Shown here one piece after another: positions 4,398-17,947 of a stretch of DNA of 20,185 bases (the stretch's first letter is position 1; every line of letters begins with the position of its first letter). The stretch is from positions 1-20,185 of IMG/VR virus record IMGVR_UViG_3300044645_003274. One strand, 5' to 3'. The position numbers were made by a program, and so were the translations under genes. This DNA comes from a virus. The notes under the pieces are model-generated. The model searched no databases and was not told where the DNA came from. It worked only from the letters and a program-made list of their open reading frames with translations.

Positions 4398-4408
4398 GCC
4401 AGGCTAGG
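4398..4408 (-). promoter_or_regulatory. CCTAGCCTGGC element ahead of the leftmost minus-strand unit
   Basis: On the minus strand this site reads CCTAGCCTGGC and ends 20 bases before the ATG at 4377. The identical 11-mer occurs at 13464-13474 and 14726-14736, with variants at 9621-9631 and 17682-17692. TAGCCT could act as a -10 hexamer; an operator or leader element is equally possible. The function is inferred from recurrence and position only. Confidence 0.45.
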
Positions 4409-4438
4409 GCTGGCAACGATGCAGAACGACGCCCATTT

Positions 4439-4444
4439 TACATT
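4439..4444 (+). promoter_or_regulatory. Possible -10 box (TACATT) of the plus-strand operon
   Basis: TACATT lies 11 bases before the ATG at 4456, in the only divergent intergenic region of the left half. No recognisable -35 lies at the standard distance. The same hexamer occurs just upstream of the sigma-factor gene (13536-13541). The leader would be only a few bases long. Confidence 0.25.
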
Positions 4445-4455
4445 CTGATTGCGGT

Positions 4456-4674
4456 ATGGTTGACCGGTCCGTCCATCTCGCCATGCGTCGATCCCGTTTG
4501 CCACGCCCCAGGCAGCGCCACCGCCAGCCCGATCCCCTGCGGGAAGCCCTGCTGATCACCCTGCCTGTTTTTGTGGTGGTGATCGCCCTGATGGGGTTTT
4601 CCATCCATCGCGACTACCACGCCCTGCGCCAGAGCCAGGCGTTCAGGTCGGCCGCCACAGCAGGGGGCTGGTGA
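4456..4674 (+). CDS. Small single-pass membrane protein (72 aa)
   Basis: The N-terminal 30 residues are strongly basic (RRSRLPRPRQRHRQPDPLRE). One hydrophobic segment follows at about 31-49 (ALLITLPVFVVVIALMGF), and then a short polar C-terminus. By the positive-inside rule the N-terminus should be cytoplasmic. It is the first gene of the plus-strand operon. An internal ATG at 4483 is an alternative start that keeps the membrane segment. Its TGA overlaps the next ATG by one base (TGATG), which indicates coupling. Small membrane proteins of phage operons can be holins, superinfection-exclusion factors or host-takeover peptides; nothing here decides among them. Confidence 0.6.
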   Translation: MVDRSVHLAMRRSRLPRPRQRHRQPDPLREALLITLPVFVVVIALMGFSIHRDYHALRQSQAFRSAATAGGW

Positions 4675-4934
4675 TGAAAGCTGCGATTAGCCCCCCCCTG
4701 GTCACCACCCCACCGGAGCAGTTGTTCTGGGTGCGCTGGCCGGCCCCAGACGACGCCTTTTATTTTGTGCGTGATCGCCACAATCCCGGCATTTGGGTGA
4801 TCACCCCAATTCAGCCTGCTCCCGTGTCGCGGCTGGAGGCGTTCGAGGTGCGATCGATGGTGGCCAGGCATATCAGCCCAGCACCGGTGCTTGTGCCGGC
4901 ACCATCTGGTTTCGTCCTGAATCCAGTACAATAG
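4674..4934 (+). CDS. Hypothetical protein (86 aa)
   Basis: ATG 4674 overlaps the previous stop by one base and has a good purine-rich ribosome-binding site (AGGGGG) about nine bases upstream; a GTG directly before it would add one residue. The product has a central region rich in aromatics and strands (EQLFWVRWPAPDDAFYFVR, then GIWVITPIQ), suggesting a small beta fold, and it lacks cysteines. No family is recognised. The 3' end contains a TACAAT box that may serve the gene at 5010. Confidence 0.6.
   Translation: MKAAISPPLVTTPPEQLFWVRWPAPDDAFYFVRDRHNPGIWVITPIQPAPVSRLEAFEVRSMVARHISPAPVLVPAPSGFVLNPVQ
4927..4932 (+). promoter_or_regulatory. Possible internal promoter -10 box (TACAAT)
   Basis: TACAAT matches the sigma-70 -10 consensus at five of six positions. 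It lies at the very end of the preceding gene, about 78 bases before ATG 5010, which is the only sizeable gap (4935-5009) inside the plus-strand operon. A clear -35 is not visible. The leader ends in a CA-rich run before the start codon. Confidence 0.3.
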
Positions 4935-5009
4935 ATAAAGCCAGTTGCTGGCTCGTTCGCCCCGGTGGCGGCTGGAGAGGTCCGGCCCCATCTACCACCC
5001 AACAACACC

Positions 5010-5570
5010 ATGTCGCTCATTCAATTGGAAAAGCGCTCCGGCGTGGTCATTCGGTTCAACTGCGATCTCACCGATGCAGACGCCCGGCAGATCGTGCTCC
5101 AGGCCCATGCCGCCCACCAGCAGGTGGGAGATTTTGCAATCAAACTGGCTACCCAGCGTGCCGGACTTTCGCCGGCTCAATCCGGCTGGCTGAAATATCT
5201 GGCCATGGAAATCAGCGGCCAGCTGCGCAGCGCCACATCCGGCCCCTGGGCCTGGTTGCTGGATAGAGGTTTTGTCAACGATCAAATCCGTATTCTGCGG
5301 CGCAGATCCAGCCAGGACCGCTGCGCCTGGGTGGAGCTGCGCCGCGATACCAGGTTTATGACACTCAATAGAGCCCAACACCCCTGGGAGTTTGTGGGCC
5401 GCATCACCCCTGACGGGGGGTTTGAGCTCTGCTCCAAGCTGCGCCAGTTGATCTCGGGAGAAGGCCGCAGCGCCATGGCCGCCATGTTCCCAGCCGAAGA
5501 AGATGCTCTGCGCGATGAGGCCAAATGGCTGCAGGTTCAAGCCACTCTCCTAATGGAGGCCCTGAGATGA
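5010..5570 (+). CDS. Hypothetical protein (186 aa)
   Basis: ATG 5010 is chosen over the upstream GTG 4965, because the earlier codons read like leader sequence and the ATG follows a CA-rich stretch (ACCCAACAACACC) like those ahead of 14960 and 19251. No Shine-Dalgarno sequence is present. The protein has a helical N-terminal half (LTDADARQIVLQAHAAHQQV, then SGWLKYLAMEI), a basic middle (RILRRRSSQDR) and a strand-rich part with WVELRRDTRFMTLN and WEFVGRITPDGGFEL, then a helical end. No family is recognised. Its stop overlaps the next small ORF by four bases (ATGA). The gene is followed directly by coupled small genes leading to ThyX. Confidence 0.7.
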   Translation: MSLIQLEKRSGVVIRFNCDLTDADARQIVLQAHAAHQQVGDFAIKLATQRAGLSPAQSGWLKYLAMEISGQLRSATSGPWAWLLDRGFVNDQIRILRRRSSQDRCAWVELRRDTRFMTLNRAQHPWEFVGRITPDGGFELCSKLRQLISGEGRSAMAAMFPAEEDALRDEAKWLQVQATLLMEALR

Positions 5571-5656
5571 AAGCTGCCACGCTTATCCCAGTGGGTCAGC
5601 AGGTATTGGCTGCCCTGCGGACCCATGATTCGCCATCCTCCTCGGTAACCCCATGA
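5567..5656 (+). CDS. 29-residue small ORF linking two operon genes
   Basis: The frame begins MKAATLIPVGQQVLAALRTH and ends after 29 residues. It has the best ribosome-binding site of the operon (GGAGG, seven bases before the ATG). Its ATG overlaps the previous stop (ATGA at 5567-5570), and its own stop overlaps the next start (ATGA at 5653-5656). The next gene has no ribosome-binding site of its own, so translating this peptide probably feeds ribosomes into it. It may be a functional micropeptide or mainly a coupling device. Its first four residues (MKAA) match those of the gene at 4674. Confidence 0.5.
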   Translation: MKAATLIPVGQQVLAALRTHDSPSSSVTP

Positions 5657-5964
5657 AAACCCGCCGCCGCTGGCCCTTGGCCCTGGCCCTTTGCATCAGC
5701 TCCACCATGGCCATGCCCGCCATGACCGCCTGCTCCGCCCAACCGGCCATGGCGGGCCCCGTAGACACCGCTGCTTACTACTCGGCAGCTTCCACTTGCC
5801 AAGCCCTGAGCCTGGGGGTTTCCAGAGTCAACGCCATCCAATGGGGGCTCAAGGAAAACATGGGTCTGTGGGGGCAATACATGCTGGACGACCTATTTAA
5901 ACGATTGATGTTCCGGCAATTGTTGGAACAATGCCCCGCCGCCATGCTCCGCAATGACAACTGA
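5653..5964 (+). CDS. Small exported protein or lipoprotein (103 aa)
   Basis: The N-terminus is a typical signal peptide: a basic MKTRRR, then a hydrophobic stretch (WPLALALCISSTMAMPAM), then either a lipobox-like MTAC at about 24-27 or a signal-peptidase I site near AMA-GP at about 33-35. The mature part (about 70 residues) has two cysteines (in STCQALS and EQCPAAM) that could form one disulfide outside the cytoplasm. No family is recognised. It is translationally coupled to the 29-residue ORF and overlaps the next gene by 11 bases. An exported protein inside a phage operon could act on the host envelope, as in lysis or superinfection exclusion, but that is inference. Confidence 0.65.
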   Translation: MKTRRRWPLALALCISSTMAMPAMTACSAQPAMAGPVDTAAYYSAASTCQALSLGVSRVNAIQWGLKENMGLWGQYMLDDLFKRLMFRQLLEQCPAAMLRNDN

Positions 5965-6223
5965 CCCACAAGCACAAGGCGCAGCCCCTGGCAACTACGT
6001 TTACAGCGCTGCGCAGCTTTTACTTTTGCGAGCCGAGCGCGACATAGCCGTAAAAGCTGGCGAGGCGCTAGCTGACCAGCTGCAACAGGCCAGGGCCAAG
6101 TTTGAAGCCAACAGAGCGGCAATCGCTGCGCTACGAGCTGACCGTTCATGGCAGCAAGCTGCAGTGGTCAGGGTGTTATTCGCCCTGGGAATCTGCGCCG
6201 CAGTATCAATCCTATGGCACTAA
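5954..6223 (+). CDS. Coiled-coil protein with C-terminal membrane anchor (89 aa)
   Basis: Residues 18-65 are a charged, Ala-rich helix with heptad character (LLLLRAERDIAVKAGEALAD, then QLQQARAKFEANRAAIAALR). Residues 69-88 are hydrophobic (AVVRVLFALGICAAVSIL) and end four residues or fewer from the C-terminus, giving a tail-anchored topology. The layout resembles phage spanin or holin-associated proteins and other small bitopic proteins, but there is no endolysin nearby. The preceding gene encodes an exported small protein, so an i-spanin/o-spanin-like pair is a possibility worth testing; it is not established. The start overlaps the previous gene by 11 bases. Confidence 0.6.
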   Translation: MTTDPQAQGAAPGNYVYSAAQLLLLRAERDIAVKAGEALADQLQQARAKFEANRAAIAALRADRSWQQAAVVRVLFALGICAAVSILWH

Positions 6224-6225
6224 TC

Positions 6226-6951
6226 ATGGATTCACGTTTCAGGGTTGATTTAATCGCCGCCACCCCCAACCCCCAGCAGGTCTGTTGGGCGGCGATGCAC
6301 CAGGACTACAGCGAGGGCTACGTGGTGGACGACCGCGCCAACTGGCCCGAGGAAAGCCGCGCTGGCGAGATCTGCGTCAAGCGACTACTTGCCGGCGAGA
6401 GGGGCCACTACGGGCCCCTGGAGCACGGCCAGATCGTACTCAACGTGGGATGGTTTCCCCATTCCGTGATGCAGCAGGCCCGTACCCATCGGGTCGGGGT
6501 TTCGTTCGATGTGCAGAGTCTTCGGTACACTGGCGGGAGGATAATCGATTACGTGATAGGCGAACGCGATTTTGAAGAAGTTTTTTACCTTCGTCCATTG
6601 GGTTATTACAGCAACCGGCAAGGCAAGAAATACTACTACGATGCACTTCATCGAGCAGCCGATAAAGAGCTTTGCACGACTGCTGCGCTTCGCTATGCCA
6701 AACTAATTGAAGATGGTTTTGCCGAAGAGCACGCCCGCAGTATCCTGCCCTTTGACGTGCGCCAGCACTTCGTAGTGAGCTTCAGCCTGCGGGCCTTCCT
6801 GCACTTCCTCGACCTGCGGGCGAAGCTCGATGCCCAGGACGAAATTCGCCAGCTCTGCGATTTGATGTGCCCCCACCTGCAGGCCTGGGCGCCGGAGATC
6901 GCCGCCTGGTATCACCAGCACCGCTGGGCTAAAGCGAGGCTGGCGCCGTGA
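6226..6951 (+). CDS. thyX: Flavin-dependent thymidylate synthase ThyX
   Basis: ThyX makes dTMP from dUMP using methylenetetrahydrofolate, with FAD and NADPH, in the cytoplasm. The ThyX signature region is at residues 86-101 (RTHRVGVSFDVQSLRY). This is the R-x-H-R...S...S-x-R-Y form, one residue longer than the textbook RHRx7S motif. The upstream helix with HYGPLEHGQIVLNV (61-74) and the C-terminal region with RSILPFDVRQHF and LRAFLHFLDLR (about 171-199) are also typical. The length from ATG 6226 is 241 residues, normal for the family; the upstream in-frame ATG at 6214 lies inside the previous gene. It follows the previous stop by two bases and overlaps the next gene by four (GTGA). Phages carry ThyX to raise thymidylate supply for their own replication. 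Confidence 0.93.
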   Translation: MDSRFRVDLIAATPNPQQVCWAAMHQDYSEGYVVDDRANWPEESRAGEICVKRLLAGERGHYGPLEHGQIVLNVGWFPHSVMQQARTHRVGVSFDVQSLRYTGGRIIDYVIGERDFEEVFYLRPLGYYSNRQGKKYYYDALHRAADKELCTTAALRYAKLIEDGFAEEHARSILPFDVRQHFVVSFSLRAFLHFLDLRAKLDAQDEIRQLCDLMCPHLQAWAPEIAAWYHQHRWAKARLAP

Positions 6952-7535
6952 AAGAGCGCTCAATTCTGTATCAGGCGCCAATGGTCCGCTCCGTGCGGAA
7001 CGGCAGCAAGACGCAAACGCGGCGCGTTGCTAAATTTTGGCGCCCCGGCGACAGTCATGCCGTCAACTTTTGCCCTTACGGCATACCTGGCGACCGTTTA
7101 TGGGTGCGGGAGTCATGGCGCGTTAGCAGCGCACACGACTACCTGCCGCCGTCCAAGCTGCCCAAGGCGTTGACTACTGAGTACCTGGCCGACAATCCAG
7201 GAATGCTCGACGGCAAAACGCGCGCCTCTATCCACATGCCCCGATGGGCATCCCGCATCACGCTGGAGGTCACTGGCGTCAAGGTGCAGCGGCTGCAGGA
7301 CATCAGCGAGGCCGATGCGCAGGCAGAGGGTATCGCGGAGCTGCCGCCGCAGGCCGGCCAGCCTGGCGCCTGGTGGTCTGCTGACCCCGCGCAACCAGCG
7401 CTGCATGGTCGCACCGCTGTTGACGCTTTTCGAGTGTTGTGGGAATCCATTTATGGCCAAGGTTCTTGGTCCGACAACCCTTTGGTTTGGGCCATTTCAT
7501 TTCAGTTAATCCACTCGCAATCTCAACATGACTGA
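6948..7535 (+). CDS. ASCH/PUA-like phage protein (195 aa)
   Basis: This is the widespread phage protein often mislabelled morphogenetic protein. Family features visible are the N-terminal MVRSVRNGSKTQTRRV, the CPYGIPGDRLWVRESW stretch (about 42-58), the PRWASRITLEVTGVKVQRLQ strand region (about 98-117), DISEADAQAEGI and the C-terminal FRVLWESIYGQGSWSDNPLV. The fold belongs to the ASCH/PUA-like superfamily, which suggests RNA or modified-nucleotide binding. The molecular role is not established. The start is GTG at 6948, overlapping the ThyX stop by four bases. It is one of the few plus-strand genes with a clear family match and supports a phage origin for the operon. Confidence 0.85.
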   Translation: MKERSILYQAPMVRSVRNGSKTQTRRVAKFWRPGDSHAVNFCPYGIPGDRLWVRESWRVSSAHDYLPPSKLPKALTTEYLADNPGMLDGKTRASIHMPRWASRITLEVTGVKVQRLQDISEADAQAEGIAELPPQAGQPGAWWSADPAQPALHGRTAVDAFRVLWESIYGQGSWSDNPLVWAISFQLIHSQSQHD

Positions 7536-8496
7536 ACAACCCACCTGGTTCGTACAGCTACAACATGACCTGAACGCTCCAATCATGGTGCCGGATGGTG
7601 CGGCAATCGACTGGGATCGGTGCCGTGATCTATTTCTAATAGCGCTGCTCCAGCGTCTGGAGAGCCGCTGGGGGATCACGCGCCCTGATATCGTGCGCGG
7701 GCTGCTGCAGCGGCGCCTCGCGGGCGAGGAGGTGATAGCTGAGCTATCCGCCGACGCCGACGCCGAGCGCACTGACCAGTTGGCCGACCTGCGAGCCACC
7801 GCCGCCGCCGCCGCCGCCGCCGACGCCGAGCGCACTGACCAGTTGGCCGACCTGCAGGCCGCAGTAGCCGCGTCGACCCAGCAGCCAGCGCTGCCAGACG
7901 GCTACATCGTGCCAACCCCGGTCGATCTAGCTGCGCTGCATGATCCCACGTTTTCGGATGGGCTAACACCATCCCAGCATCGAGATGTTCTGGCCGGCGG
8001 GGCAGGCACCCGAGGATCCGCCCCCAACGATGATGAGCTGCTGCGCACTTATGGCGTTGCCAAGCGCGACCACTGCTACGAAGGGCCGATTGATGACTGG
8101 CCCAAGCGAGCTGAACGAGCAGCAACTGTTCACGGCCTCCGCGCCGTCCTTGCTCGCTGGGGCGCCACCCCGCCAGCCAGTCCGGTGCCGCAGGGGCTGA
8201 CGGATGAGGAGCTTCGTGAAATGTGGCTCAGCCAAGAATGGTTCAACGAAGGGGCAACCTTCAGGGAGTTCGCCAGCATCGTTAGCCGCTGGGGCCGCCC
8301 CGCCATCGAGCCGGTGCCGGTGAGCGATCCGCCGGGGCCGAAGGATTGCGATGCGGAGGGCCTTTGCTGGTGGTGGAGCCGAGACATCACCGCATGGTGC
8401 CTGTGTTTCGCTGCAGACGGTGACTCATCTGAGTGGACCCACTGGCTCCCCCACTGGGCCATCCCACAGCCCCAGACCGGGGATGTGCAGCCATGA
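7528..8496 (+). CDS. Hypothetical phage protein with an internal repeat and W/C-rich C-terminus (322 aa)
   Basis: Residues 1-75 are helical (WDRCRDLFLIALLQRLESRW, then IVRGLLQRRLAGEEVIAEL). Residues 76-116 hold two copies of DAERTDQLADL separated by a run of alanines; this is encoded by a 38-base direct repeat. Residues 165-255 contain two related motifs ending in ARWG and SRWG (LRAVLARWG and FASIVSRWG), each after a helix. The last 60 residues are rich in Trp and Cys (CWWWSRDITAWCLCF) and end THWLPHWAIPQP, which resembles the tail of DUF551-like phage proteins; this link is weak. It overlaps the upstream gene by eight bases and the downstream one by four. The function is unknown. Confidence 0.7.
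   Translation: MTEQPTWFVQLQHDLNAPIMVPDGAAIDWDRCRDLFLIALLQRLESRWGITRPDIVRGLLQRRLAGEEVIAELSADADAERTDQLADLRATAAAAAAADAERTDQLADLQAAVAASTQQPALPDGYIVPTPVDLAALHDPTFSDGLTPSQHRDVLAGGAGTRGSAPNDDELLRTYGVAKRDHCYEGPIDDWPKRAERAATVHGLRAVLARWGATPPASPVPQGLTDEELREMWLSQEWFNEGATFREFASIVSRWGRPAIEPVPVSDPPGPKDCDAEGLCWWWSRDITAWCLCFAADGDSSEWTHWLPHWAIPQPQTGDVQP
7755..7855 (+). repeat. Two 38-base direct repeats at 63-base period with a GCC run
   Basis: Copies at 7755-7792 and 7818-7855 are identical; each holds GACGCCGAGCGC, ACTGACCAGT and TGGCCGACCTGC in order. A GCC trinucleotide run fills the space between them. The period of 63 bases (21 codons) keeps the frame, so unit gain or loss would change the number of DAERTDQLADL helices without disrupting the protein. 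Confidence 0.85.
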
Positions 8497-8969
8497 ATCG
8501 CATCATGCGCACCATCGCCCGCCTCCTGACCCCGTGGCGCGCCATCCGCCAGCTGGAGCGCGAAGTAAAACGGCTGGAGGGGGTCATCGCCAACCCCTAT
8601 CTGGCCGGGCTGCAGATAGGCCGAGATACAGGCATCGAAGTGGGCTTCCAAGGGAGCGGCCCCCAGCTGTTGGCCGGAATGTTTGCCGGGCTGCTGGAGG
8701 CGGACGGGGCAAGCGCTCCCAACTATCTGGATCTGGAGTTTCACACTCATTCCCAGGGCCGAATCCTGGTGCATGTCCAGCGGCTCCACGGTGAGACGCC
8801 GCACGCGCTGCGGGTGAAGGCTGAGAAGAAAGCAGCCGAGTGGAAGGCTGTTGCCCAGGCATTATATGATGCTCTTAACCGTCGGAAGCCCTGCACACTC
8901 CTGGCCTGGATGGCCGCAATGCAGGCCTACCAATATTTAAAAAGTTTGGATGCAGAGGTGCAGCCATGA
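8493..8969 (+). CDS. Hypothetical protein (158 aa)
   Basis: ATG 8493 overlaps the previous stop (ATGA) and is preferred to the upstream ATG 8433, whose extra codons lie inside the preceding gene. The N-terminus is basic and helical (MNRIMRTIARLLTPWRAIRQ) and continues into a charged coiled-coil-like segment (LEREVKRLEGVIANP). The middle contains a strand pattern (LDLEFHTHSQGRILVHVQRL), and the C-terminus is helical. No family is recognised. It overlaps the next gene by four bases, within the same operon. Confidence 0.65.
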   Translation: MNRIMRTIARLLTPWRAIRQLEREVKRLEGVIANPYLAGLQIGRDTGIEVGFQGSGPQLLAGMFAGLLEADGASAPNYLDLEFHTHSQGRILVHVQRLHGETPHALRVKAEKKAAEWKAVAQALYDALNRRKPCTLLAWMAAMQAYQYLKSLDAEVQP

Positions 8970-9275: not shown

Positions 9276-9297
9276 AAGGGGCCTTTCAGGGCCCCTT
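9276..9297. terminator. Hairpin terminator shared by the plus operon and the HNH gene
   Basis: AAGGGGCC at 9276-9283 and GGCCCCTT at 9290-9297 form a perfect eight-base stem with a six-base loop, followed on the plus strand by TCTCATT. On the minus strand the stop codon of the HNH gene (9286-9288) sits inside the loop. It lies between convergent transcription units and can serve both, though the T-tract is short. Confidence 0.65.
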
Positions 9298-9603
9298 TCT
9301 CATTCCGCCACTGTTATTGCCCGCCACCCACTCCAGCAGCCGCTGTTCCCTGAAGGCTGTCCAGCCGAGCCGTGGTCGCCACCATTGCAAAACCTCCTGG
9401 CTCCCCTTGCTTCCGTTGCAGGCCAGGCAGGCCGGTACGCAGTTTTCACGAACTGTGGGGCCGCCCTGGCTGCGGGGGATCACGTGATCGAGGGATTGAG
9501 CGGTGGCGCCGCAGTAGGCGCACTGGCCGCCCCAGGCTTCGCGGATGCTGCCATGCCATCGGCGCTTTGTGACCAGCTCCGTCTCAACGATCAGGGCCTG
9601 CAT
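9286..9603 (-). CDS. HNH endonuclease
   Basis: A 105-residue HNH nuclease. CAYC at 28-31 and CLAC at 59-62 form the zinc-binding knuckles, [10 protein letters not shown] at 39-48 gives the catalytic His, and N54 and N63 complete the motif. HNH proteins beside terminase and portal genes are known in HK97-like phages, where they assist cos cleavage and packaging; a homing nuclease is the alternative. The position between portal/minor-head genes and the rest of the head cluster, in the same orientation, favours the packaging role. The start is ATG 9603, preceded at 17 bases by the TTTAGCCTGGC element. It ends inside a bidirectional terminator hairpin and has no neighbour within coupling distance, so it may be transcribed alone. 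Confidence 0.88.
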
Positions 9604-9620
9604 GCGCTGCGATCGGCTGC

Positions 9621-9897: not shown

Positions 9898-11427
9898 TCA
9901 GAGCTCGGCCACCTCGCGCACGATGGAGTCGTAGGCGGCTTGGGCTGCTGAATCCAGCCAGCCCCGCCTGGGGCACCACACCGGATCGCCTGTAGGCCAG
10001 GGCCTAGCGGCCAGGTTCAGCGGATCCTCACCCCCCAGCCCTTGGCGGGGCACGGATTGGGGCCGCTGTTTGCGCTCCATCAGCGGGTAATCGCGAGGGC
10101 TGAGGCGCTCATCGCCCGCACCACCCACCGGCCGCAATTTGGCACCCTTGCCATTGGCCCGGAAGAAATGGGCCAGGGTGCTCTTGCTATGGCGCTTGGC
10201 CTGGGCCTCCCACCGCTCGGCTGGTTTATCCGCCAGGTCGTTTTCGATCACCAGCGATTCCAGGCTCACCGGTGTTTCCTGGCAGCGGCAGTTGGGGTGA
10301 ATCGGGCTCTTCACTGAGCCGATGTAGTACAGGCAGCCGGAGCGGGGGGCGCAGAACTCACAGGTGCGCTCGTCCAACGTGGCCATGTACTGCACAAAGC
10401 CCACCCTCAATTTGCGCCAGCAGCGCTCTTGGGCTTCGCCGGAGGCCATCAGGGTTTCGGTGCGGGCGATGGTTTCCGCCCGATTTTGAAACGCCTCGTT
10501 GATCGTCGGGATCCGTTCTTTCAGATTTTTTGCCAGGGTTTTGGGGTCCGGACCCCGGGCCATTTGGCGGGCGGTCTCAAACGACACGCTCTCCCCCCAC
10601 TTGCCCCACCATTTGGCGTAATAGTGTTTCGCCGCGGCCACGTGTTGATCCGTCGCTGCATCCCGCTCCCGGCGGTAGTTTTCTGATAGGCCTTTGAAAT
10701 CCCGCTCGGCGGCCACCACCGCCCCGGAGAGATCAAAGAGGCGCGTCAGCCGCTGGCCCCCCTGATACTGGCGATCGGGGCCGATGCCAGGGCCTCCGCT
10801 CGCCAGGGGCCCTGTGGGGCCGGTGGCCGGGGCTGGGGCGGTGGGCCGCCTGCCGGTGGGGCTGATGCCACCACCAATCAGAGGCCCCGATGGAGACTGG
10901 GGGGCAGTACCAGGCAGCGCTGGCGATGCTGGCGCCGCCGCCGCTGCCTCCTGGCCTGGCAGTTGGCGGATGGTGCCATCGGGATCGAGCTGGACCATGG
11001 CCGGGGCCAGATCTGCCTGAATCAGCTGCAGTCCGTAATTGGTGCCCAGGTCCTGGGCCTGATCGAACAGCTGGCGCAGCTCCCCGTTCAATCGCTCCAG
11101 CCGCTCGGGGCTGAGCGGCACGGCATTGAGCACCACCATCAAATCTTGAATCAGCTGGGGCTGCAGCAGCAGCCCTGCCTGGTTTTTTTGCAACGGCTCA
11201 ATGGGAACCGGCCCTTCTGGTGTGCTGCCCAGAAAAGCACCGGGGCTGTTGGCGGGGTTGTAGTCGGGCTGATCGGCAGCCTTCTCCAGCAGCTCAAACA
11301 CCCGCGCCACGGTATCCCTCAGCGCTGCTTCAAAAATGCGGCCGATGCGCTGGATTGCTGGGTCTTCCAGGCCCCGCAAAGCCTCGCTGAGCTGTTCGGC
11401 CAGCTGTTCGCGGCGATCAATTCCCAT
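9898..11427 (-). CDS. Mu F/SPP1 gp7-type minor head (head morphogenesis) protein
   Basis: A 509-residue protein whose C-terminal half holds the Phage_Mu_F domain (about 250-390): RAETIARTETLMASGEAQER at 316-335, MATLDERTCEFCAPRSG at 348-364 and PIHPNCRCQETP at 375-386. The CEFC and HPNCRC cysteines and histidine are the expected zinc-binding set. These proteins sit near the portal inside the procapsid and can be injected with the DNA. Residues 155-225 are a long Pro/Ala/Gly-rich linker, and the N-terminal 145 residues are helical. ATG 11427 overlaps the portal stop by 11 bases, the usual portal-then-gp7 order. The 115 residues after the Mu F domain are basic and Trp/Pro-rich and may be a virion-specific extension. 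Confidence 0.9.
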   Translation of the reverse strand: MGIDRREQLAEQLSEALRGLEDPAIQRIGRIFEAALRDTVARVFELLEKAADQPDYNPANSPGAFLGSTPEGPVPIEPLQKNQAGLLLQPQLIQDLMVVLNAVPLSPERLERLNGELRQLFDQAQDLGTNYGLQLIQADLAPAMVQLDPDGTIRQLPGQEAAAAAPASPALPGTAPQSPSGPLIGGGISPTGRRPTAPAPATGPTGPLASGGPGIGPDRQYQGGQRLTRLFDLSGAVVAAERDFKGLSENYRRERDAATDQHVAAAKHYYAKWWGKWGESVSFETARQMARGPDPKTLAKNLKERIPTINEAFQNRAETIARTETLMASGEAQERCWRKLRVGFVQYMATLDERTCEFCAPRSGCLYYIGSVKSPIHPNCRCQETPVSLESLVIENDLADKPAERWEAQAKRHSKSTLAHFFRANGKGAKLRPVGGAGDERLSPRDYPLMERKQRPQSVPRQGLGGEDPLNLAARPWPTGDPVWCPRRGWLDSAAQAAYDSIVREVAEL

Positions 11428-13447
11428 AGCTGTCGCACCTCACACCCATGGCGATCAAATCGAGTCCATCCAGCCGCCTCACCCGGGCGCTGGCCCCTGC
11501 CGCGGTGGTCACCAGCTCGGCAGCGTTCACACCCACCACCGCACACCACTGCCCGCCAGCTCCCAGCACCTCCCACAGCCCCTCGCTGTCAAATCCCACC
11601 GCTGCATTCAGCCCAGCAATCGGCTGGCCGTAGGGGCCCACCAGGGCGGCGGAACCATCGGCCCGCACATCCAACGGCACGCCCGCCACCACCCGCCGGC
11701 CGGTGATTCGAGCCCCATCGGCCCGCACGCCGGCCGGCCGGCCGCGGCCTCGCGATCGTGCAGGGCCAGGCTTGGCAATCCGCTGGGCGATGGCCGCAGC
11801 CAGGGCCTGGCCGTCATCCGGGATGGGCTCTTCCTCCGGTGCGGAGGTGTCTTTTTGCTGCTGCTCAACCTCTTCATCGCAGGCGGAGCAACAGCCATCT
11901 TCTCGGGGATCGCTGGCGCCTGCCAGGCCATCACCCCTGGCCGCGGCGGCTTGCTCCTCTGGCGTGAGCTCAGCGGTGCCTGCCGCCGCTGGTGCTGCTG
12001 ATGTTGTGGGTTCAGCCGGGGCATCGCCGCTGGCGGGGTCGCCGCCGGCTGGATCTGCTTCAAGATCACCACCGAAATCAGGTCCGGTGCCCTCATCGGG
12101 CTGGGGGATGGAGCCATCTGGCTCCCGATTAAGCAGGGTGGTCTCCATCGAGAATTTGGCGCCGCTGAATCGGGCCAATGCGACTTCCGTCGGCGTTATC
12201 ACCTGCTCGCGGATATATGCGGTATCGGTGGTTGCTTGCTTGGAGCGCAGCTCGGCCTCCTCTAAATCTGAAAGCGCGAAGGTGGCGTGGAAATCGATTT
12301 TCCAATCTTCTGGCAGCTCCATGGGGGAGGGCCCGCGGGAACAGGCCGCCAGCAACTCGTAAAACTGGCGCAGGGGGCGATCCAGGTGATCCTGCTGCTG
12401 CTGGGCCGTCTCCATTGCAAAAGCGGCATCTTCTGATCGGCCATCAGCACCCAGTCCGGAGGGGGAAGCACCCCAGAGTTTGGTGTGGGGGATGCGGCTG
12501 GCCCCCTGCACCTCCGTTTCCAGCTTGCCGATCACCGTATCGATGCCCCCCAGGGATCGGGTGATCCAGGCAACGTCCTCGCCGTCGGCATCGATGGCAA
12601 TGCCTCCCAACACAGACCGGCATAGGCCGTTTAGTTCCAGCCGGGCCTGAATGGCCGCCTCCTTTCCATTGGCCACCATCTGGCCTAAACCCCTTATTTT
12701 TTGCACAAAAAGGCTGAAATCGTCGAGGATGGCCGATCCGCTTTTTTGTCCGGTTTCATATCGTTTAAACACCTCCCAGAGGCTCTGCAGCACAGACACG
12801 CCCCACCAGTTATTCAGGCTTTTGAGCCTGTGGGGCAGGGGGTCGCCGTCAAAGCGCAGCAAACGGGAACTATGAATTGGCACCCCTATTTCCTTTTCAT
12901 CCATTCCCACTCGCCTCAAATCGTCGTCTTGATATACAACAAATTGATAACGCTCCGGAGCACCCACGCCAGACCAACCAGGGGCGGGCCAGATGCGCCA
13001 GCGATCCATTGCGTACAGGCCCCGGATCGAGCGCAGCCGTTTGGGATCCACGGGCTCGCTGATTGGTAGCCCGTCGTCGAGCAACAGCACAATCACCGCC
13101 CCGCCATGGTGGCGTGCCATGCGCAAGGCCTCGCGCACATGATCTCGAATGCCCAGGCTTTCCCCGGCCGATACCAGTTTGTCGAGGCGCTTTTTTTGGG
13201 CCTCATTCACATCGCCTCCCACGGTGATACCCCAGCCGGACCTGGTGGCCTCACTGGCAACCAGGTCCACCACCCGGCGGCAAAGCCAACTGCTCACGTA
13301 GAGGTTGTTCAGCTCCTCCTCCTGAAGCAAGCGAACCGGAGCTATGGCCGTGTAGCTGGAGCGGTCACGGCTGGTGCCCATGCGCGTCAGCGCATTGATC
13401 AACACGCCATCGTTGCGCTCCTCTGGCAGCAGGGATTGACCGGACAT
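11417..13447 (-). CDS. Phage portal protein, DUF1073 type, with a long C-terminal extension
   Basis: The portal is the ring through which DNA enters and leaves the capsid. The frame may begin at GTG 13459 (680 residues), but ATG 13447 (676) places the CCTAGCCTGGC element 16 bases upstream. Numbering from the GTG, family features are SSWLCRRVVDLVASEATRSG (56-75), MARHHGGAVIVLLLDDG (114-130), an LYAMDRWRIWP segment (148-158) and TKLWGASPSGLGADG at 326-340 with the following Q-rich helix. The portal core ends near 450. An acidic, disordered linker (450-550) contains a CCSAC cluster, and a distinct strand-rich domain (575-680) follows with repeated VRADG motifs. DUF1073 proteins are usually 400-500 residues, so this extension is unusual. 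It lacks the paired HxT motifs of the Acb1 anti-CBASS enzymes found fused to some relatives. Confidence 0.88.
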   Translation of the reverse strand: MSGQSLLPEERNDGVLINALTRMGTSRDRSSYTAIAPVRLLQEEELNNLYVSSWLCRRVVDLVASEATRSGWGITVGGDVNEAQKKRLDKLVSAGESLGIRDHVREALRMARHHGGAVIVLLLDDGLPISEPVDPKRLRSIRGLYAMDRWRIWPAPGWSGVGAPERYQFVVYQDDDLRRVGMDEKEIGVPIHSSRLLRFDGDPLPHRLKSLNNWWGVSVLQSLWEVFKRYETGQKSGSAILDDFSLFVQKIRGLGQMVANGKEAAIQARLELNGLCRSVLGGIAIDADGEDVAWITRSLGGIDTVIGKLETEVQGASRIPHTKLWGASPSGLGADGRSEDAAFAMETAQQQQDHLDRPLRQFYELLAACSRGPSPMELPEDWKIDFHATFALSDLEEAELRSKQATTDTAYIREQVITPTEVALARFSGAKFSMETTLLNREPDGSIPQPDEGTGPDFGGDLEADPAGGDPASGDAPAEPTTSAAPAAAGTAELTPEEQAAAARGDGLAGASDPREDGCCSACDEEVEQQQKDTSAPEEEPIPDDGQALAAAIAQRIAKPGPARSRGRGRPAGVRADGARITGRRVVAGVPLDVRADGSAALVGPYGQPIAGLNAAVGFDSEGLWEVLGAGGQWCAVVGVNAAELVTTAAGASARVRRLDGLDLIAMGVRCDSYGN

Positions 13448-13463
13448 GGGGGATGGCACCTGG

Positions 13464-13474
13464 GCCAGGCTAGG
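13464..13474 (-). promoter_or_regulatory. CCTAGCCTGGC element ahead of the portal gene
   Basis: An exact copy of the 11-mer lies 16 bases before ATG 13447 on the minus strand. A T-rich stretch (GTTTTTATC) lies about 15-24 bases further upstream. The sigma-factor gene begins divergently only 77 bases away, so this site could also sit where portal and sigma transcription meet. Confidence 0.45.
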
Positions 13475-13535
13475 CAGCGGCCAGATAAAAACACCTCAGC
13501 CACTGCTTCATCCTGCAACCGGGATGGTGCGTCGG

Positions 13536-13541
13536 TACATT
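13536..13541 (+). promoter_or_regulatory. Possible -10 box (TACATT) of the sigma-factor gene
   Basis: TACATT lies nine bases before ATG 13551. If it is a -10 box, transcription would start almost at that ATG, giving a leaderless message or favouring the in-frame ATG at 13569 with a short leader. No convincing -35 is visible. The same hexamer precedes the plus-strand operon at 4439. Confidence 0.25.
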
Positions 13542-13550
13542 TAGAAGGCG

Positions 13551-14516
13551 ATGCACTGCGGATCGGCCATGGCTCAACGGCGGCTGCCCACCGTGGTGGA
13601 CTCGATCCTGAACAGCCTGGAGCATTATCCAGTGCCAACGGCTACAGAACAAATTGAGTACGGACGCGCCGTTCGCGCCTGGCAGGACTGGTCCGGAGGC
13701 CCGGATGCAGCGCCTCCCCGCGTGAGGCGATTTGGGCTCAAGGGCCGGGAACGTCTGGTGACCGGCAACCTGCGACTGGTAGTCAACGTGGCCAAAAAAT
13801 ACCAATCACGAGGGATACCACTGGAGGACCTTATCCAGGAGGGCTCGCTGGGCCTGACCACGGCAGCCGAAAAATACGACCCCGGCAGGGGCTACATGTT
13901 TTCCACCTATTCGTATTGGTGGGTAAAGCAGCGGATCCTGCGTTATGTAATTGATAAGGCCAGCCTGATTCGGGTGCCAGGCAGCACGAATGACGACCTG
14001 TTCAAGGTCAGGCGACAGCTGGACGGATGTTCCGGGCAGCGCAGCGATAAAGAGCTGTTGGTGGCGGCCGGGCTCAAGGAGCTGCCTGACACCATGGTGC
14101 GGCTCCGCGATGCAATGCGGGCCAGGGCATGCGGTAGTACCTCGGTACTGCTGCCCAGTGGTGGCGGCTGCATTGAGGATTTGCAGGCCAGCCCAACAGG
14201 TGGGAAGGACGATCAATACGAAGCGCTGGAACGGGCCGAGCGACAGGCACTGGTGTGCAAATTGCTGGCGGAGCTGCCAGATAACGAACGCCAGGTATGG
14301 GAGCTGCGAGTGGTGGAGGGGGTGCCCCGAGTCGAGGTGGCCCAGATCCTGAATATTTCGGTGAGCGCGGTGGGAGAACTCAAGCGCCGCGCCATAGCTC
14401 ACCTGCAGGCATTGGTAGCCCAGCAGGATGCCGGCTTGCAGGTGGGCTATGGCGCGGCGCTGGCTCCAGTGCCGGCAGCCTGCCAGCAATTGCAGCTCTC
14501 ATTGCTGCCTGGCTAG
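13551..14516 (+). CDS. Sigma-70 family sigma factor (group 2-like), phage-encoded
   Basis: The protein would direct RNA polymerase to a set of promoters. Region 1.2 is at about 12-45. Region 2 spans 66-135 with VTGNLRLVVNVAKKYQSRG, PLEDLIQEGSLGL, and FSTYSYWWVKQRILRYVI at 117-134. Region 3 (136-215) is loosely conserved. Region 4 spans 228-288 with the helix-turn-helix VPRVEVAQILNISVSAVGEL. Aligned by eye with E. coli sigma-70, the -10-contacting Q437 is kept (Q127) but T440 is replaced by L130, and the basic residues of region 2.4 are altered, suggesting changed promoter specificity. It is divergent from the portal gene and surrounded by structural genes. The last 35 residues are an uncharged Ala/Leu/Gln tail. 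ATG 13569 is an alternative start. A host-derived acquisition is likely. Confidence 0.9.
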   Translation: MHCGSAMAQRRLPTVVDSILNSLEHYPVPTATEQIEYGRAVRAWQDWSGGPDAAPPRVRRFGLKGRERLVTGNLRLVVNVAKKYQSRGIPLEDLIQEGSLGLTTAAEKYDPGRGYMFSTYSYWWVKQRILRYVIDKASLIRVPGSTNDDLFKVRRQLDGCSGQRSDKELLVAAGLKELPDTMVRLRDAMRARACGSTSVLLPSGGGCIEDLQASPTGGKDDQYEALERAERQALVCKLLAELPDNERQVWELRVVEGVPRVEVAQILNISVSAVGELKRRAIAHLQALVAQQDAGLQVGYGAALAPVPAACQQLQLSLLPG

Positions 14517-14705
14517 CGGCTTGGCTAGCCAGGCCCGATTCACGTGCCGGCTCTGGCTCCGGTATCGAGCCCTGCGGCGGCCAGAGCCGGCGGCCAGAGC
14601 CAGGGCCCGATTTCGCAGCGACAGCCGGGCAGGTCGATGCCAGCTCCAAAAGCGGCTGGCGCAATACAAAATCCACAACACCATGATTGCCGCAGTGACC
14701 TGCAC
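14499..14705 (-). CDS. Possible small membrane protein (68 aa)
   Basis: A GTG at 14705 opens a frame whose residues 3-20 form a hydrophobic helix (VTAAIMVLWILYCASRFW), followed by a strongly basic, Arg-rich tail. The CCTAGCCTGGC element lies 20 bases upstream, the same spacing as for established minus-strand genes. Against it: the tail is encoded by inverted-repeat DNA, and its end overlaps the sigma gene antisense. ATG 14718 in another frame is an alternative reading of the same element. Function unknown. Confidence 0.35.
   Translation of the reverse strand: MQVTAAIMVLWILYCASRFWSWHRPARLSLRNRALALAAGSGRRRARYRSQSRHVNRAWLAKPLARQQ
14507..14534. terminator. Perfect 11-base hairpin at the end of the sigma gene
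   Basis: GCCTGGCTAGC at 14507-14517, a six-base loop and GCTAGCCAGGC at 14524-14534 form a perfect stem. The sigma stop codon (14514-14516) is inside the first arm. No T-run follows, so it is either a U-less terminator or a 3'-end stabilising structure. The arms also contain a rearranged form of the TAGCC/CCTGGC bases seen in the recurring element. Confidence 0.5.
14546..14591. repeat. 12-base perfect inverted repeat with 22-base spacer
   Basis: GCCGGCTCTGGC at 14546-14557 and its exact complement GCCAGAGCCGGC at 14580-14591 flank a 22-base spacer. A further partial copy (GGCCAGAGCCAGGGCC) begins directly after. It lies just downstream of the sigma-factor hairpin, so the two could form consecutive stem-loops in a read-through transcript. 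Confidence 0.6.
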
Positions 14706-14725
14706 CTGATTTGCGCATTGGCAGG

Positions 14726-14736
14726 GCCAGGCTAGG
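14726..14736 (-). promoter_or_regulatory. CCTAGCCTGGC element in the sigma downstream region
   Basis: This is the third exact copy of the 11-mer on the minus strand. CTGGCCAGGG lies 14 bases upstream of TAGCCT, exactly as at the HNH site. No confident gene starts downstream; the best candidate is the 68-residue membrane ORF at 14705. If it is a promoter, it would run antisense into the sigma gene. Confidence 0.4.
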
Positions 14737-14898
14737 AAACCCGGTAGTCCCTGGCCAGAAATCGAACGGCTGACCGTGGTTCATTGGCCAACAAAGCCAT
14801 CCAAAACCCTGAGCAGCCCCCATTGGCGTCCACTACCAAGAACGGCCAGGCCAAACATTGCGTTTCGTAAATGAATTTGACCCCACGTCTCGGGGTTA

Positions 14899-14962
14899 CG
14901 TTACGGACGTGCTACCATTTATTCACCGGGGCCGAGGGGTCCCACCACCAACAAAAGAAATG
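14899..14962 (+). promoter_or_regulatory. Duplicated promoter/5' leader block, copy A
   Basis: The block contains an extended -10 (TG-C-TACCAT, with TACCAT at 14913-14918), then ATTTATTCACC, then a hairpin (GGGGCC, loop GAGG, GGTCCC, 14928-14943), and a 16-base CA-rich leader ending at ATG 14960. It matches 19249-19312 on the other strand at roughly nine of ten positions. With the -10 as drawn, transcription would start at about 14925, putting the hairpin at the extreme 5' end of the mRNA. No Shine-Dalgarno sequence is present. Confidence 0.5.
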
Positions 14963-15469
14963 ACCAGTTTCCTCGCCACAATTGAAGCCGCTGCGGTCTC
15001 TGTCGAGACAGCGGCCAGGGCTTCTGCCCCTCACCTGCAAACGGTTGCCCGCGCCGATTGGGGCCAGCACCTGAAGGCCGCGGCCGAGCGCACCCTGCCG
15101 GTGATCGCCGCCATCTGGCTGGCCGTCGAGCTCGCCGGTGCCCTCGTGCTGGGCACCTGGCAGGCAGGCCGCGCCACCCGCCTGGCGGTGGAGGCGGTCA
15201 ACAATTGGCTGGCCGCCATCGCCGGGGATCTGGCCGATCCCACCCGGCACCAGCAGGAGGCTGAACAGCCAGCCGAGCAGCCAGCCGAGCAGCAGCCAAC
15301 CGCACCAGTGGCGCCCACAGCCCCAGCAACCCCCCATCTGCCGGTGTTGGCCCCTGCCCCTCGCCGTCGTTTGTCCCTGTCCGGCTGGCTCCAGGCTGAT
15401 GGCTGGGATGCCGACGACGTGGCTGCCCTGGTGCGCCGCCGCCCGCACCCCCAGGGCATAGCGGCCTGA
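14960..15469 (+). CDS. Membrane-anchored hypothetical protein with Pro/Gln-rich linker (169 aa)
   Basis: ATG 14960 is chosen because the codons upstream are shared DNA with the 5' region of an unrelated gene, so they are leader, not protein. Residues 1-44 are helical and Ala-rich, a hydrophobic segment spans about 45-66 (TLPVIAAIWLAVELAGALVL), and a second amphipathic helix follows (AVEAVNNWLAAIAGDL). Residues 95-135 are a low-complexity linker (AEQPAEQPAEQQP, then Pro/Thr/Ala). The C-terminus is a small basic domain with WLQADGWDADDVAALVRRR, which reads like a short helical DNA- or protein-binding motif. No family is recognised. It is convergent with TerL and followed by a GGGGCCCC hairpin. 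Confidence 0.6.
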   Translation: MTSFLATIEAAAVSVETAARASAPHLQTVARADWGQHLKAAAERTLPVIAAIWLAVELAGALVLGTWQAGRATRLAVEAVNNWLAAIAGDLADPTRHQQEAEQPAEQPAEQQPTAPVAPTAPATPHLPVLAPAPRRRLSLSGWLQADGWDADDVAALVRRRPHPQGIAA

Positions 15470-15476
15470 TCTCTAA

Positions 15477-15498
15477 GGGGCCCCAACTCAGGGGCCCC
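15477..15498 (+). terminator. GGGGCCCC hairpin between two plus-strand genes
   Basis: Two copies of GGGGCCCC, itself a palindrome, separated by AACTCA form an eight-base stem with a six-base loop, seven bases after the stop at 15469. No T-run follows. It may end the upstream transcript, or act as a 5' hairpin for the gene at 15528, since it too is followed by a CA-rich, Shine-Dalgarno-free leader. Confidence 0.5.
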
Positions 15499-15527
15499 AC
15501 ATCCTGCACAACACCCCACACCACTCA

Positions 15528-15743
15528 ATGGCTGAATCAACAGAGCCGGCCGATGATTTCATTCTTACTGGTTACAGCGTGGAGGCGATAGAGGGAAGCC
15601 TGGCCATCTGGGGGCACTCCAGTTCTTGCGTTAGCCCGCTGGTTTATCTTCGCCGGCCCAAATGGATCAAGGATGATGATTGCTGGGCTGACATTGTTAA
15701 GTCTATTGTGATCAGCATGAAACCTAATACGGCAGTTTATTAG
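15528..15743 (+). CDS. Hypothetical protein (71 aa)
   Basis: A small acidic-start protein with strand-like segments (FILTGYSVEAIEGSLAIWG, then VSPLVYLRRPKW) and a C-terminal helix (ADIVKSIVISMK). The codons are richer in A+T than those of neighbouring structural genes, consistent with accessory origin. ATG 15528 follows a CA-rich leader (ACACCCCACACCACTCA) without a ribosome-binding site. It is convergent with TerL, with only three bases between their ends, and a 16-base-paired-arm hairpin lies over the junction. No family is recognised. Confidence 0.55.
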   Translation: MAESTEPADDFILTGYSVEAIEGSLAIWGHSSSCVSPLVYLRRPKWIKDDDCWADIVKSIVISMKPNTAVY

Positions 15744-15780
15744 CCGCTAAATCATTGTGATCCAGCTGTTCATTAGCGGC
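15743..15780. terminator. Inverted repeat at the TerL/plus-gene junction
   Basis: GCCGCTAA at 15743-15750 and TTAGCGGC at 15773-15780 are perfect eight-base arms with a 22-base loop. The last base of one stop codon and the whole TerL stop lie within the first arm. There is no T-run. The position between convergent genes suits a transcript-end structure. Confidence 0.4.
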
Positions 15781-17210
15781 CTGATCCTGGCGCCAGCATG
15801 CCCGGCCATGGCCAGTGCCATTACCGCGTCATCGTGGTGACCTGGGGCGGCTTTGCGGTCGCCCTTTTCTGTTTGGCGAAAATTGCGCATCTGCTGGCCC
15901 ACGTAGCTGTTGGGGGGAATCGTGAGCTCGCCCTGCTCTAGCAGCAGCACCAGCCGATCGCTCATCATGATTTTGCTTGGCCCGGATGTGTAAACCTCTT
16001 CCAGTTCGGTGCCTGGCCGCAGCAGACACAGAGCCTCCCCAACTGCTGCCCCAACCCCGTTTTTTTCCACCACCACCAGAGTGGGCTGATATTCATCAAT
16101 CAGCCTGGCGCAGCGCTGCAGGCCGTAATCCCGGCTGCAGCCGGCTTCGTTGAAGCCGGCCACCACCCGCCAGGGACTCGCCGATACATCCAGCACCAGG
16201 CCGCAGAAGGCATCGCCACCGCCGCCGTTCGGATCAATGCCCAGCACATAGCTATGGCCCCAGGTAGGTGCATCCCAGCCCCCTGCGGCCTCTGCCAGCT
16301 CGATCAGATCGTGAGCGTATATTTCGTAGTCGGATGCGGTGAAGTCGAGTTCGTATTCACTGCGCCATTGCTGTTCTGTCAGCTGGCGTTTGCGGCGGGT
16401 TTTCTCCGCCCAATCTGGATCCTGACTATATACTGGGTGCTGGGAATAATGAATGCAAACTTTGGCGTATTGATTGTCGGGAGAGATGCGCAGCCTAGGG
16501 ATGCCATTAACCCCCATGGGCGTGGGATCCACCACCACCTCACCGTGGTCTTCGTGCCAATGGTCTGAGAAGGTGCCGCTGCGGCCATTTGGCGTGGTAA
16601 TCCATAGATGGCGGGCCATGTCTTCCAACATCGAGGTGGAGGGCAGTGCGCCTTGCTCGATGCCGCTCAACCTGGTGATGTAGGCGGCTTCGTCAAACAG
16701 GATTGAGGCGGCAGACGGGATTCCCCTGGCAGCCCGCTCGGTGGGCGGCAAAAAATGCAACGCGCCAAAGCCGTCAAAGACCAGTTTCCTTGCGGATTCT
16801 TTGGCAAACTTCGGGCATCGATCGCGGAGCGAGGCCGCCTGCCCTTTGATTCTGGCTGCCAACTCGCTGGCGTCATCGCCAGTTTTGCTGAACGCCACCC
16901 CAGTCCAGGCCGGCCGGCGGCAGGCTTGGCAAAATTTGTAGTTGATTACCGTTTCAGAAATGCCAGTTTGCCGGCTCTTCAGTACATAGACGTTTTGCAC
17001 CTTGCGGTGTATTTTTATCAGCTCCCGCTGTGCAGCAAACGGTATAAAAGGGATGTACTTGCCGGCAGAGGCAATCTTGGTTTGCGCCGCAAAATCTGGC
17101 CACTTCCCAGGCAGTGAATCCCATGGGTTGGCCTTGGCTGGGCCACCCACCAGCGGATCCCGTGAATACCAATCAACGATGCTGGGCGGCCGAACAATCA
17201 GGGATGTCAT
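15747..17210 (-). CDS. terL: Terminase large subunit
   Basis: The motor and nuclease that packages phage DNA into the procapsid. The 487-residue protein has an N-terminal ATPase with a variant Walker A at about 77-85 (LKSRQTGIS), Walker B with catalytic Glu at about 169-175 (SILFDEAA) and coupling motif III at 204-212 (ITTPNGRSG). The RNase H-like nuclease has its acidic triad at D326 (GIDPNGGGGD), E382 (VVVEKNGVG) and D460/D461 (HHDDAVMALAMA). All key residues are present, so it should be active. ATG 17210 follows the TerS stop by two bases, in the usual TerS-TerL order. No inteins or breaks are seen. It is convergent with the plus-strand gene at 15528. Confidence 0.95.
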   Translation of the reverse strand: MTSLIVRPPSIVDWYSRDPLVGGPAKANPWDSLPGKWPDFAAQTKIASAGKYIPFIPFAAQRELIKIHRKVQNVYVLKSRQTGISETVINYKFCQACRRPAWTGVAFSKTGDDASELAARIKGQAASLRDRCPKFAKESARKLVFDGFGALHFLPPTERAARGIPSAASILFDEAAYITRLSGIEQGALPSTSMLEDMARHLWITTPNGRSGTFSDHWHEDHGEVVVDPTPMGVNGIPRLRISPDNQYAKVCIHYSQHPVYSQDPDWAEKTRRKRQLTEQQWRSEYELDFTASDYEIYAHDLIELAEAAGGWDAPTWGHSYVLGIDPNGGGGDAFCGLVLDVSASPWRVVAGFNEAGCSRDYGLQRCARLIDEYQPTLVVVEKNGVGAAVGEALCLLRPGTELEEVYTSGPSKIMMSDRLVLLLEQGELTIPPNSYVGQQMRNFRQTEKGDRKAAPGHHDDAVMALAMAGHAGARIRPLMNSWITMI

Positions 17211-17212
17211 TG

Positions 17213-17665
17213 CTAATCAAAATCCTCAGCCGGGTCGATAACAGCTGCCTCTCGGCTCTGCTGGTTGGCCGCAACAGCGTCATCCGGGGCCCGCTCCACA
17301 AACAGGTTTGCCTGCGCCACACAGGCTTGAATCATGGCGCTGGGATTATTCGCTGCCCTGGCAACTTTATAGCTATTTTCTAGGCGATAATACACAATCA
17401 GCGCTATGCGCCGCTTGTCGATGCAGGTAAGCGCTTCTTCAAGGGATTCATACATCTCCTTGATATATTTATTAGCAGTGCGGCGCGGCATTGCCCACTT
17501 CTTTTCGCAATGATCACGCAATTCCAGCGGGCTGCAGCCATTTCTGCAGAGTGTCTGCAGCTCCCGCATTCTGAATATTTTTTCTAACTTTGTTGGCTGG
17601 TTCTTTTTGCCTGGTCTCTTTGAGCCGTCACCCCCCGCAGGTTTTGGCGCAGGGAGTCTGCTCAC
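17213..17665 (-). CDS. Terminase small subunit candidate
   Basis: A 150-residue protein directly upstream of TerL, with the DNA-binding, recognition-subunit position. The N-terminus is Lys/Pro-rich. Residues 27-72 form a helix-turn-helix-like domain (MRELQTLCRNGCSPLELRDH, then WAMPRRTANKYIKEMYES), followed by a long helix (RRIALIVYYRLENSYKVAR, about 85-103) and an oligomerisation-type helical tail ending in acidic residues. No named family is certain by eye; the assignment rests on the position, size and HTH. The start is GTG 17665, with a CCTATCCTGGT variant of the recurring element 16 bases upstream. Recognition of pac or cos DNA is inferred. Confidence 0.75.
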   Translation of the reverse strand: MSRLPAPKPAGGDGSKRPGKKNQPTKLEKIFRMRELQTLCRNGCSPLELRDHCEKKWAMPRRTANKYIKEMYESLEEALTCIDKRRIALIVYYRLENSYKVARAANNPSAMIQACVAQANLFVERAPDDAVAANQQSREAAVIDPAEDFD

Positions 17666-17681
17666 GAATCAATAGCGATTC

Positions 17682-17692
17682 ACCAGGATAGG
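17682..17692 (-). promoter_or_regulatory. CCTATCCTGGT element ahead of the terminase genes
   Basis: A two-base variant of the 11-mer, ending 16 bases before GTG 17665, so the spacing equals that at the portal. TATCCT is closer to a -10 consensus than the TAGCCT of the other copies. This site could drive TerS-TerL separately from the upstream small genes. Confidence 0.4.
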
Positions 17693-17936: not shown

Positions 17937-17947
17937 GGCTTGAACTG

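Follow-up and report, generated by a model that had tools for sequence, protein, structure and literature searches.

A phage fragment of 20,185 bases (the window, which is the complete IMG/VR record IMGVR_UViG_3300044645_003274) raises the question of what is signalled by a short GC-rich element that recurs ahead of its minus-strand gene starts. A sequence-only reading had described the element as 11 bases long and had proposed it as a candidate late promoter core or shared operator. Our analysis indicates that it is very probably a late promoter core, and, with a probability of roughly three in four, that it is the -10 core of late promoters read by the phage's own sigma70-family factor.

A conserved 8-base core ahead of gene starts

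The exact 11-mer CCTAGCCTGGC occurs three times in the window, always on the minus strand (4398, 13464 and 14726), with variants TTTAGCCTGGC at 9621 and CCTATCCTGGT at 17682, and the gaps between 11-mer and start are 20 (ATG 4377), 17 (ATG 9603), 16 (ATG 13447), 20 (GTG 14705) and 16 (GTG 17665) bases, all in agreement with the first description. The length did not hold: what is conserved is a degenerate core of 8 bases (TAGCCTGG, TATCCTGG, CAGACTGG, CAGAATGG, CAAACTGG), which in the window lies 17-23 bases before gene starts. The sites are as follows, with G and L numbers as our handles for related genomes and loci.

2608..2615, minus strand: core variant CAGACTGG, 23 bases before TTG 2584 of an LPD1-domain gene; newly found, identical 8-mer in G003
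4020..4027, minus strand: core variant CAGAATGG, 22 bases before ATG 3997; newly found, identical 8-mer in G003
4399..4406, minus strand: core TAGCCTGG, 21 bases before ATG 4377 of gene 4033-4377; the orthologous place holds TAACCTGG in L010 and TAGCCTGG in L011
9622..9629, minus strand: core TAGCCTGG, 18 bases before ATG 9603 of the HNH gene; kept in L004, L005, L006 and L007
9651..9658, plus strand: core variant CAGACTGG, 17 bases before ATG 9676 of a weak open reading frame (ORF), divergent from the HNH site; newly found, identical 8-mer in G003
13465..13472, minus strand: core TAGCCTGG, 17 bases before ATG 13447 of the portal gene
14727..14734, minus strand: core TAGCCTGG, 21 bases before GTG 14705 of a small membrane protein gene; core kept in L006 (G003), L007 and G005, upstream flank otherwise altered in L006 and L007
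17683..17690, minus strand: core TATCCTGG, 17 bases before GTG 17665 of the presumed small terminase gene; counterparts TATCTTGG in G003 and TACCCTGG in L013
17955..17962, minus strand: core variant CAAACTGG, 18 bases before ATG 17936; newly found, identical 8-mer in G003 and G005

The HNH gene and the divergent small ORF are separated by a near-symmetric gap (9601-9680) with facing copies of AGNCTGGCGCAGC.

Together the cores form a family (TAGCCTGG, TATCCTGG, TACCCTGG, TAACCTGG, TAGCATGG, CAGACTGG, CAGAATGG, CAAACTGG) that can be written as about YAGMMTGR. When 23 diverged orthologous pairs of sites were anchored on the 8-mer, identity was 0.87-1.00 per position within it, 0.61-0.96 over the seven bases immediately upstream, mostly 0.65-0.87 in the leader and 0.17-0.78 (mostly below 0.6) at positions -45 to -8, a peak that is partly built in, as some of the sites in the pairs were selected with the pattern. 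The originally noted sites are free of that selection, and at 14726 TAGCCTGG persists in G003 although the flank before it has largely changed. The word CTGGCCAGGG, reported 14 bases upstream of TAGCCT at 9621 and 14726, is indeed present at both places; it is altered in G003, L004 and L007, so it lies outside the element, and as a -35 partner it was rejected for that reason.

Recurrence of the 11-mer had been called far beyond chance. Counting alone does not bear this out, since matches with up to two mismatches number 15 in the window against 14.1 expected and 34 different 11-mers are present at least three times, many of them simple repeats; position relative to starts does. For a window so rich in GC, the number of copies of the 11-mer is ordinary; their placement is not. 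Each of the four exact copies of TAGCCTGG in the window falls outside the called genes and precedes a start, and copies outside called genes make up 4/5 in G003 and 2/4 in G005. An unbiased count of 8-mers upstream of called starts in the window gave TGGCGCAG and CTGGCGCA, both drawn from the element's downstream half, as the top words with 4 each, and none of 36 shifted windows exceeded 2; in G003 the top count of 4 was equalled by 2 of 36 shifted windows and is not decisive there. De novo expectation maximization on the upstream regions of G003 returned a related motif of width 10, ca.ccTGGcg (log-likelihood 45.0 versus 26.1-30.3 in five shuffles). Copies of TAGCCTGG at G003 19606 and G005 29169 precede orthologous genes (39% identical) at an 8-mer gap of 17 bases in both, and have no counterpart in the window.

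We scanned the relatives and recorded distances to starts, a check that had been suggested along with the element. The broad pattern YANMHTGR was set on groups A and B of the relatives, groups C and D were fetched only afterwards, and sites at a gap of 12-22 bases before called starts were compared with 1500 column permutations of the pattern. Starts came from a purpose-built caller without validation against annotation, which missed GTG 17665 and GTG 14705. The results showed enrichment at this gap, with 6 sites in the window (0.43 expected), 11 in G003 (1.04), 7 in G005 (0.92), and 5, 6 and 7 in G006, G009 and G010 (0.95-1.24 expected), while neighbouring gap bins were mostly near expectation, with a few of them showing up to 4 seen for 1 expected. 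Group A had 24 sites versus a permuted mean of 1.61, and group B 18 versus 2.85, with 1/1500 permutations as high in each; these groups helped define the pattern, so their enrichment is not independent. The independent groups C and D together had 12 sites versus a permuted mean of 2.57, and none of the 1500 permutations was as high, although 2 of the 12 were portal sites already seen before the test. G012 contributed 7 of these (versus 0.87) and G015 another 3.

Eight of the 12 genes marked in groups C and D have a family match, in every case of a virion, packaging or lysis type: portal (two), tail fibre (two), endolysin-type (two), the phrog_21 'portal protein' type, and a weak tape-measure match (5e-4). 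The other four are small ORFs, three of which were scanned and gave no match. None of the 11 sites in G003 stands before the annealing-protein, replication-initiator, recombinase, ParB or sigma genes. The motif thus appears to mark many late genes and not early ones, with timing judged from gene function and many marked genes being of no known function.

The sigma gene and its association with the element

One of the sites lies in the 121-bp gap between two divergent genes.

11417..13447, minus strand: portal protein gene (Phage_portal_3 2.4e-64)
13569..14516, plus strand: sigma70-family factor gene (Sigma70_r2 1.4e-19, Sigma70_r4 8.1e-09), divergent from portal, with an in-frame ATG further upstream at 13551

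The best solved relatives of the window sigma are SigA proteins. Among the best 80 of 192 portal relatives, 27 have a sigma homologue, every time immediately ahead of portal and in the opposite orientation. The pattern TARCYTGR, derived from the sigma-bearing portal upstreams, lies no more than 100 bases ahead of the portal match at 24 of the 27 sigma-bearing loci (11 of 13 distinct upstreams), a figure that is descriptive. The test lies in the loci without a sigma hit, and here the pattern was found upstream of portal in 0/51 (0/21 distinct), 36 of which have at least 1,500 bases upstream, enough to reveal a sigma gene. Consistently, no homologue of the window sigma was found in G019 or in Synechococcus phage S-CBS4, and neither is enriched for the motif: sigma-less G019 has 2 sites versus 0.88 (317/1500 permutations as high), and S-CBS4 has 1 and 2 sites in its two parts.

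Within sigma70-family factors, residues of regions 2.3-2.4 serve to read the -10 element and those of region 4.2 the -35 element. Regions 2.3-2.4 are well conserved in most lineages, with the first of two tryptophans altered in L051, L052, L063 and group D, and the region 4.2 helix differs from that of SigA in the window, G003 and groups B and D. The sigma gene is 46-48% identical between the window and G003, while the adjoining portal is 93-94% identical; this spot (13569-14516) may be one of fast divergence or replacement.

Several observations weigh against a late promoter core read by the phage sigma. On the portal tree all sigma-bearing phages fall on one side of a single branch, and because of this single split the association counts as one event, not many; the co-occurrence of sigma and motif may reflect one evolutionary event, that is, shared history without lock and key. 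Three sigma-bearing loci, L051, L052 and L062, lack TARCYTGR and have TAGCCTTC, TAGCCTTC and TATCGTGA, respectively. The group C sigmas of L049, L050 and L062 keep a SigA-like RER(I/V)RQIE helix, indicating that loss of -35 reading is not general. At the 15 of 51 sigma-less loci with less than 1,500 bases upstream, a sigma gene could be off-contig, and the search of the 53 sigma-less loci covered the fetched locus only rather than the whole genome. One permuted pattern did as well as the real one in group A, and so did one in group B; G014 has 0 sites, and G013 (group D) alone has 2 versus 0.84 expected. De novo expectation maximization on G010 did not recover the element, its best motifs beating shuffles but being of low information. 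The orthologous pairs show a mild rise in identity (0.52-0.74) at -20 to -16, which non-orthologous sites do not have. Among sigma-bearing cyanosiphoviruses, S-CBS1, whose sigma is more distant, has 0 sites, S-LBS1 has 2 (206/1500 permutations as high) and the first 50 kb of P-SS2 have 4 (79/1500). S-CBS3, whose sigma is 33% identical to that of the window over the match, has 5 sites (1/1500 as high). As these phages do not clearly share the motif, its extension to other cyanosiphoviruses was not accepted.

Promoter-like anatomy and alternative explanations

In promoters of the sigma70 type, G at -6 is recognised by sigma region 1.2. The motif has A and T in the places of -11 and -7, with a G beside the T, and in PMC3753650 A-11 and T-7 are described as the most conserved bases of -10 elements, flipped out of the stack. 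All five noted sites and their orthologues have A as the second and T as the sixth base of the hexamer; in later sites both are forced by the pattern and form no test. At positions not fixed by the pattern, 30 of 38 distinct contexts show G as the third base of the hexamer, and 25 show an A 6 bases beyond it. This A is suggestive as the likely transcription start, in which case leaders would measure about 15 bases; the commonest gap between 8-mer and start codon is 18 bases (17 of 54 sites, 12-22 searched). No -35 signal was found over the 38 contexts (at most 0.21 bit at -24 to -16). The sites do not resemble host sigma70 (SigA-type) promoters with a TTGACA-like -35, a spacer of 16-18 and a TATAAT-like -10, and a sigma70 consensus scan of window positions 1-20000 gave 4 matches, none at the sites. 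Dyad symmetry of the kind expected of a palindromic operator is absent from the 8-mer.

In the mechanism that we infer, the phage sigma would join the host RNA polymerase core and open the DNA at YAGMMT (T/C-12, A-11, T-7), followed by G-6 and G/A-5, without any fixed -35 element. Late transcription would begin some 6 bases beyond the hexamer on a purine, most often A, so that the 5' leaders of packaging, virion and lysis genes would measure roughly 14-20 bases. A wider proposal seems to us evenly balanced: that a freshwater cyanophage clade, at least partly temperate, has a dedicated late sigma reading only the GC-rich Y-A-G-M-M-T-G-R with no -35, and that sigma and promoters stay matched as the sigma diverges to about 35-48% identity.

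Between the two functions first put forward, a late promoter core best fits the position, orientation, gene class, conservation, -10-like anatomy and sigma association, whereas an operator fits less well. Such a promoter core might still be read by a host sigma of cyanobacterial group 2/3, perhaps with a phage activator, leaving the phage sigma to another job. Cyanobacteria do possess several sigma factors (PMC5780444), but the motif is far from TATAAT, its sites escaped the consensus scan, it is missing upstream of portal in all 51 testable sigma-less loci, and it is not enriched in the two phages where no homologue of the window sigma was found; we consider reading by a host sigma unlikely.

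Binding of a phage repressor or activator at a shared operator would account for a recurrent site near late gene starts, for the two facing copies in the HNH/9676 gap and for the 8-base inverted repeat around the 4398 site. That repeat, however, is altered in L010, the core is asymmetric and used in a single orientation, and none of the 27 sigma-bearing loci has TARCYTGR in reverse orientation ahead of portal, which makes an operator quite improbable. Slightly less credit still goes to an RNA signal in the leader that aids translation start: only some genes are marked, the element accompanies a sigma gene, and it is unlike a Shine-Dalgarno sequence and too distant from the start to act as one, even though the distance to the start codon is near-fixed and some copies lie within gene clusters. 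The least probable explanation is chance recurrence of a GC-rich word favoured by phage composition; the count of the 11-mer family at expectation and the many other repeated 11-mers agree with it, but it is contradicted by the conservation of the core while flanks changed and by the position-specific enrichment in groups C and D. We therefore retain a late promoter core read by the phage sigma as the preferred reading.

Known systems, relatives and neighbouring features

T4 late promoters have the sequence TATAAATA and no -35. They resemble the present sites in combining a -10-type element without -35, a phage sigma and late genes, and differ in being AT-rich and in needing gp33 and the gp45 clamp, whereas the present core is rich in GC and the window sigma has matches to Sigma70_r2 as well as Sigma70_r4; the site sequences do not match TATAAATA. 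The roles of gp55, gp33 and gp45 in T4 late transcription are set out in PMC5780444. Phages phiEco32 and 7-11, described in PMC4331800, likewise encode a sigma and have a short low-copy motif that stands ahead of structural and middle genes and was found by intergenic comparison with 9-base searches. Unlike the window phages, they have another motif, they encode an anti-sigma (not searched for here), and their strands are sharply divided, whereas late-type genes here lie among early-type ones on both strands.

S-CBS1, S-CBS3, S-LBS1 and P-SS2, siphoviruses of Synechococcus or Prochlorococcus, also have sigma70-family genes, but these are located elsewhere in the genome. What the P-SS2 sigmas recognise is no more than a supposition of the authors in PMC2784084. 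In S-LBS1 (L037), a freshwater Synechococcus phage with a sigma, GATCCATAGCCTG occurs three times on the virion-gene strand (2503, 8069 and 19750) and may be a parallel to the window element; one copy ends 4 bases before an annotated ATG and would, if a promoter, give a nearly leaderless message.

Phage sigmas with their own late promoters are already known, and the present one would be a further case, with a GC-rich, -10-only signature; no earlier report of the motif was found in the open literature, subscription journals being mostly outside the search. Several cyanosiphoviruses have sigma genes, and the element yields, for one of their clades, a defined candidate recognition sequence and a predicted start point. 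If the reading is true, late transcription units could be called from metagenomic contigs, and the sigma and its promoters would offer an orthogonal pair for cyanobacteria.

Among the named phages searched, the closest portal is that of S-CBS4 (38.7% identity over 63% of length). A terminase-alignment profile scan of genome contigs for the host gave 207 pattern matches and 0 relatives, so the host is judged from kinship to cyanophages only: the phages form a freshwater family that probably infects cyanobacteria. The relative G003 (56.8 kb, portal 93% identical to that of the window) also carries head protease, major head protein, endolysin, serine recombinase, replication initiator and ParB genes, and therefore looks temperate. 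The other genes around the sites are these.

9286..9603, minus strand: HNH endonuclease gene
9898..11427, minus strand: Mu F-like head protein gene, downstream of portal
14499..14705, minus strand: small membrane protein gene, 68 amino acids, GTG start; frame conserved in G003, G004 and G005
15747..17210, minus strand: large terminase gene
17213..17665, minus strand: presumed small terminase gene, named by its position ahead of the large terminase, without Pfam or PHROG match

For the homologues of the presumed small terminase in G003, G006, G009 and G010, a GTG start was called. The target of the 14726 site had been taken for a weak membrane-protein ORF and proved instead to be a conserved small gene, with the same GTG frame in three relatives; an alternative ATG 14718 frame (8-mer gap 8) was rejected, the GTG 14705 frame being better conserved. 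Its protein of 60-68 amino acids has an N-terminal membrane stretch, judged by eye, and a basic tail, with no PHROG match, and is possibly of a small lysis type.

A second repeated leader, roughly GTTACGG.CGTGCTACCATTTAT.CACCGGGGCCGAGGGG.CCCAC, precedes two different genes (14890-14960, plus strand; 19310-19250, minus strand), with variants before other genes in G003 and G005. Its minus-strand copy gives a host-type match, TTGCCA-17-TACCAT with TG (19321-19293), and the leader is possibly an early promoter and/or operator. An inverted repeat, GGGTCGAA...TTCGACCC, lies at 20100-20185 and also in the recombinase/ParB gap of G003 and G005, and is a possible attachment or regulator site. Finally, about nine tandem CTTGGC hexamers occupy 17966-18020 within the called gene 17948-18211.

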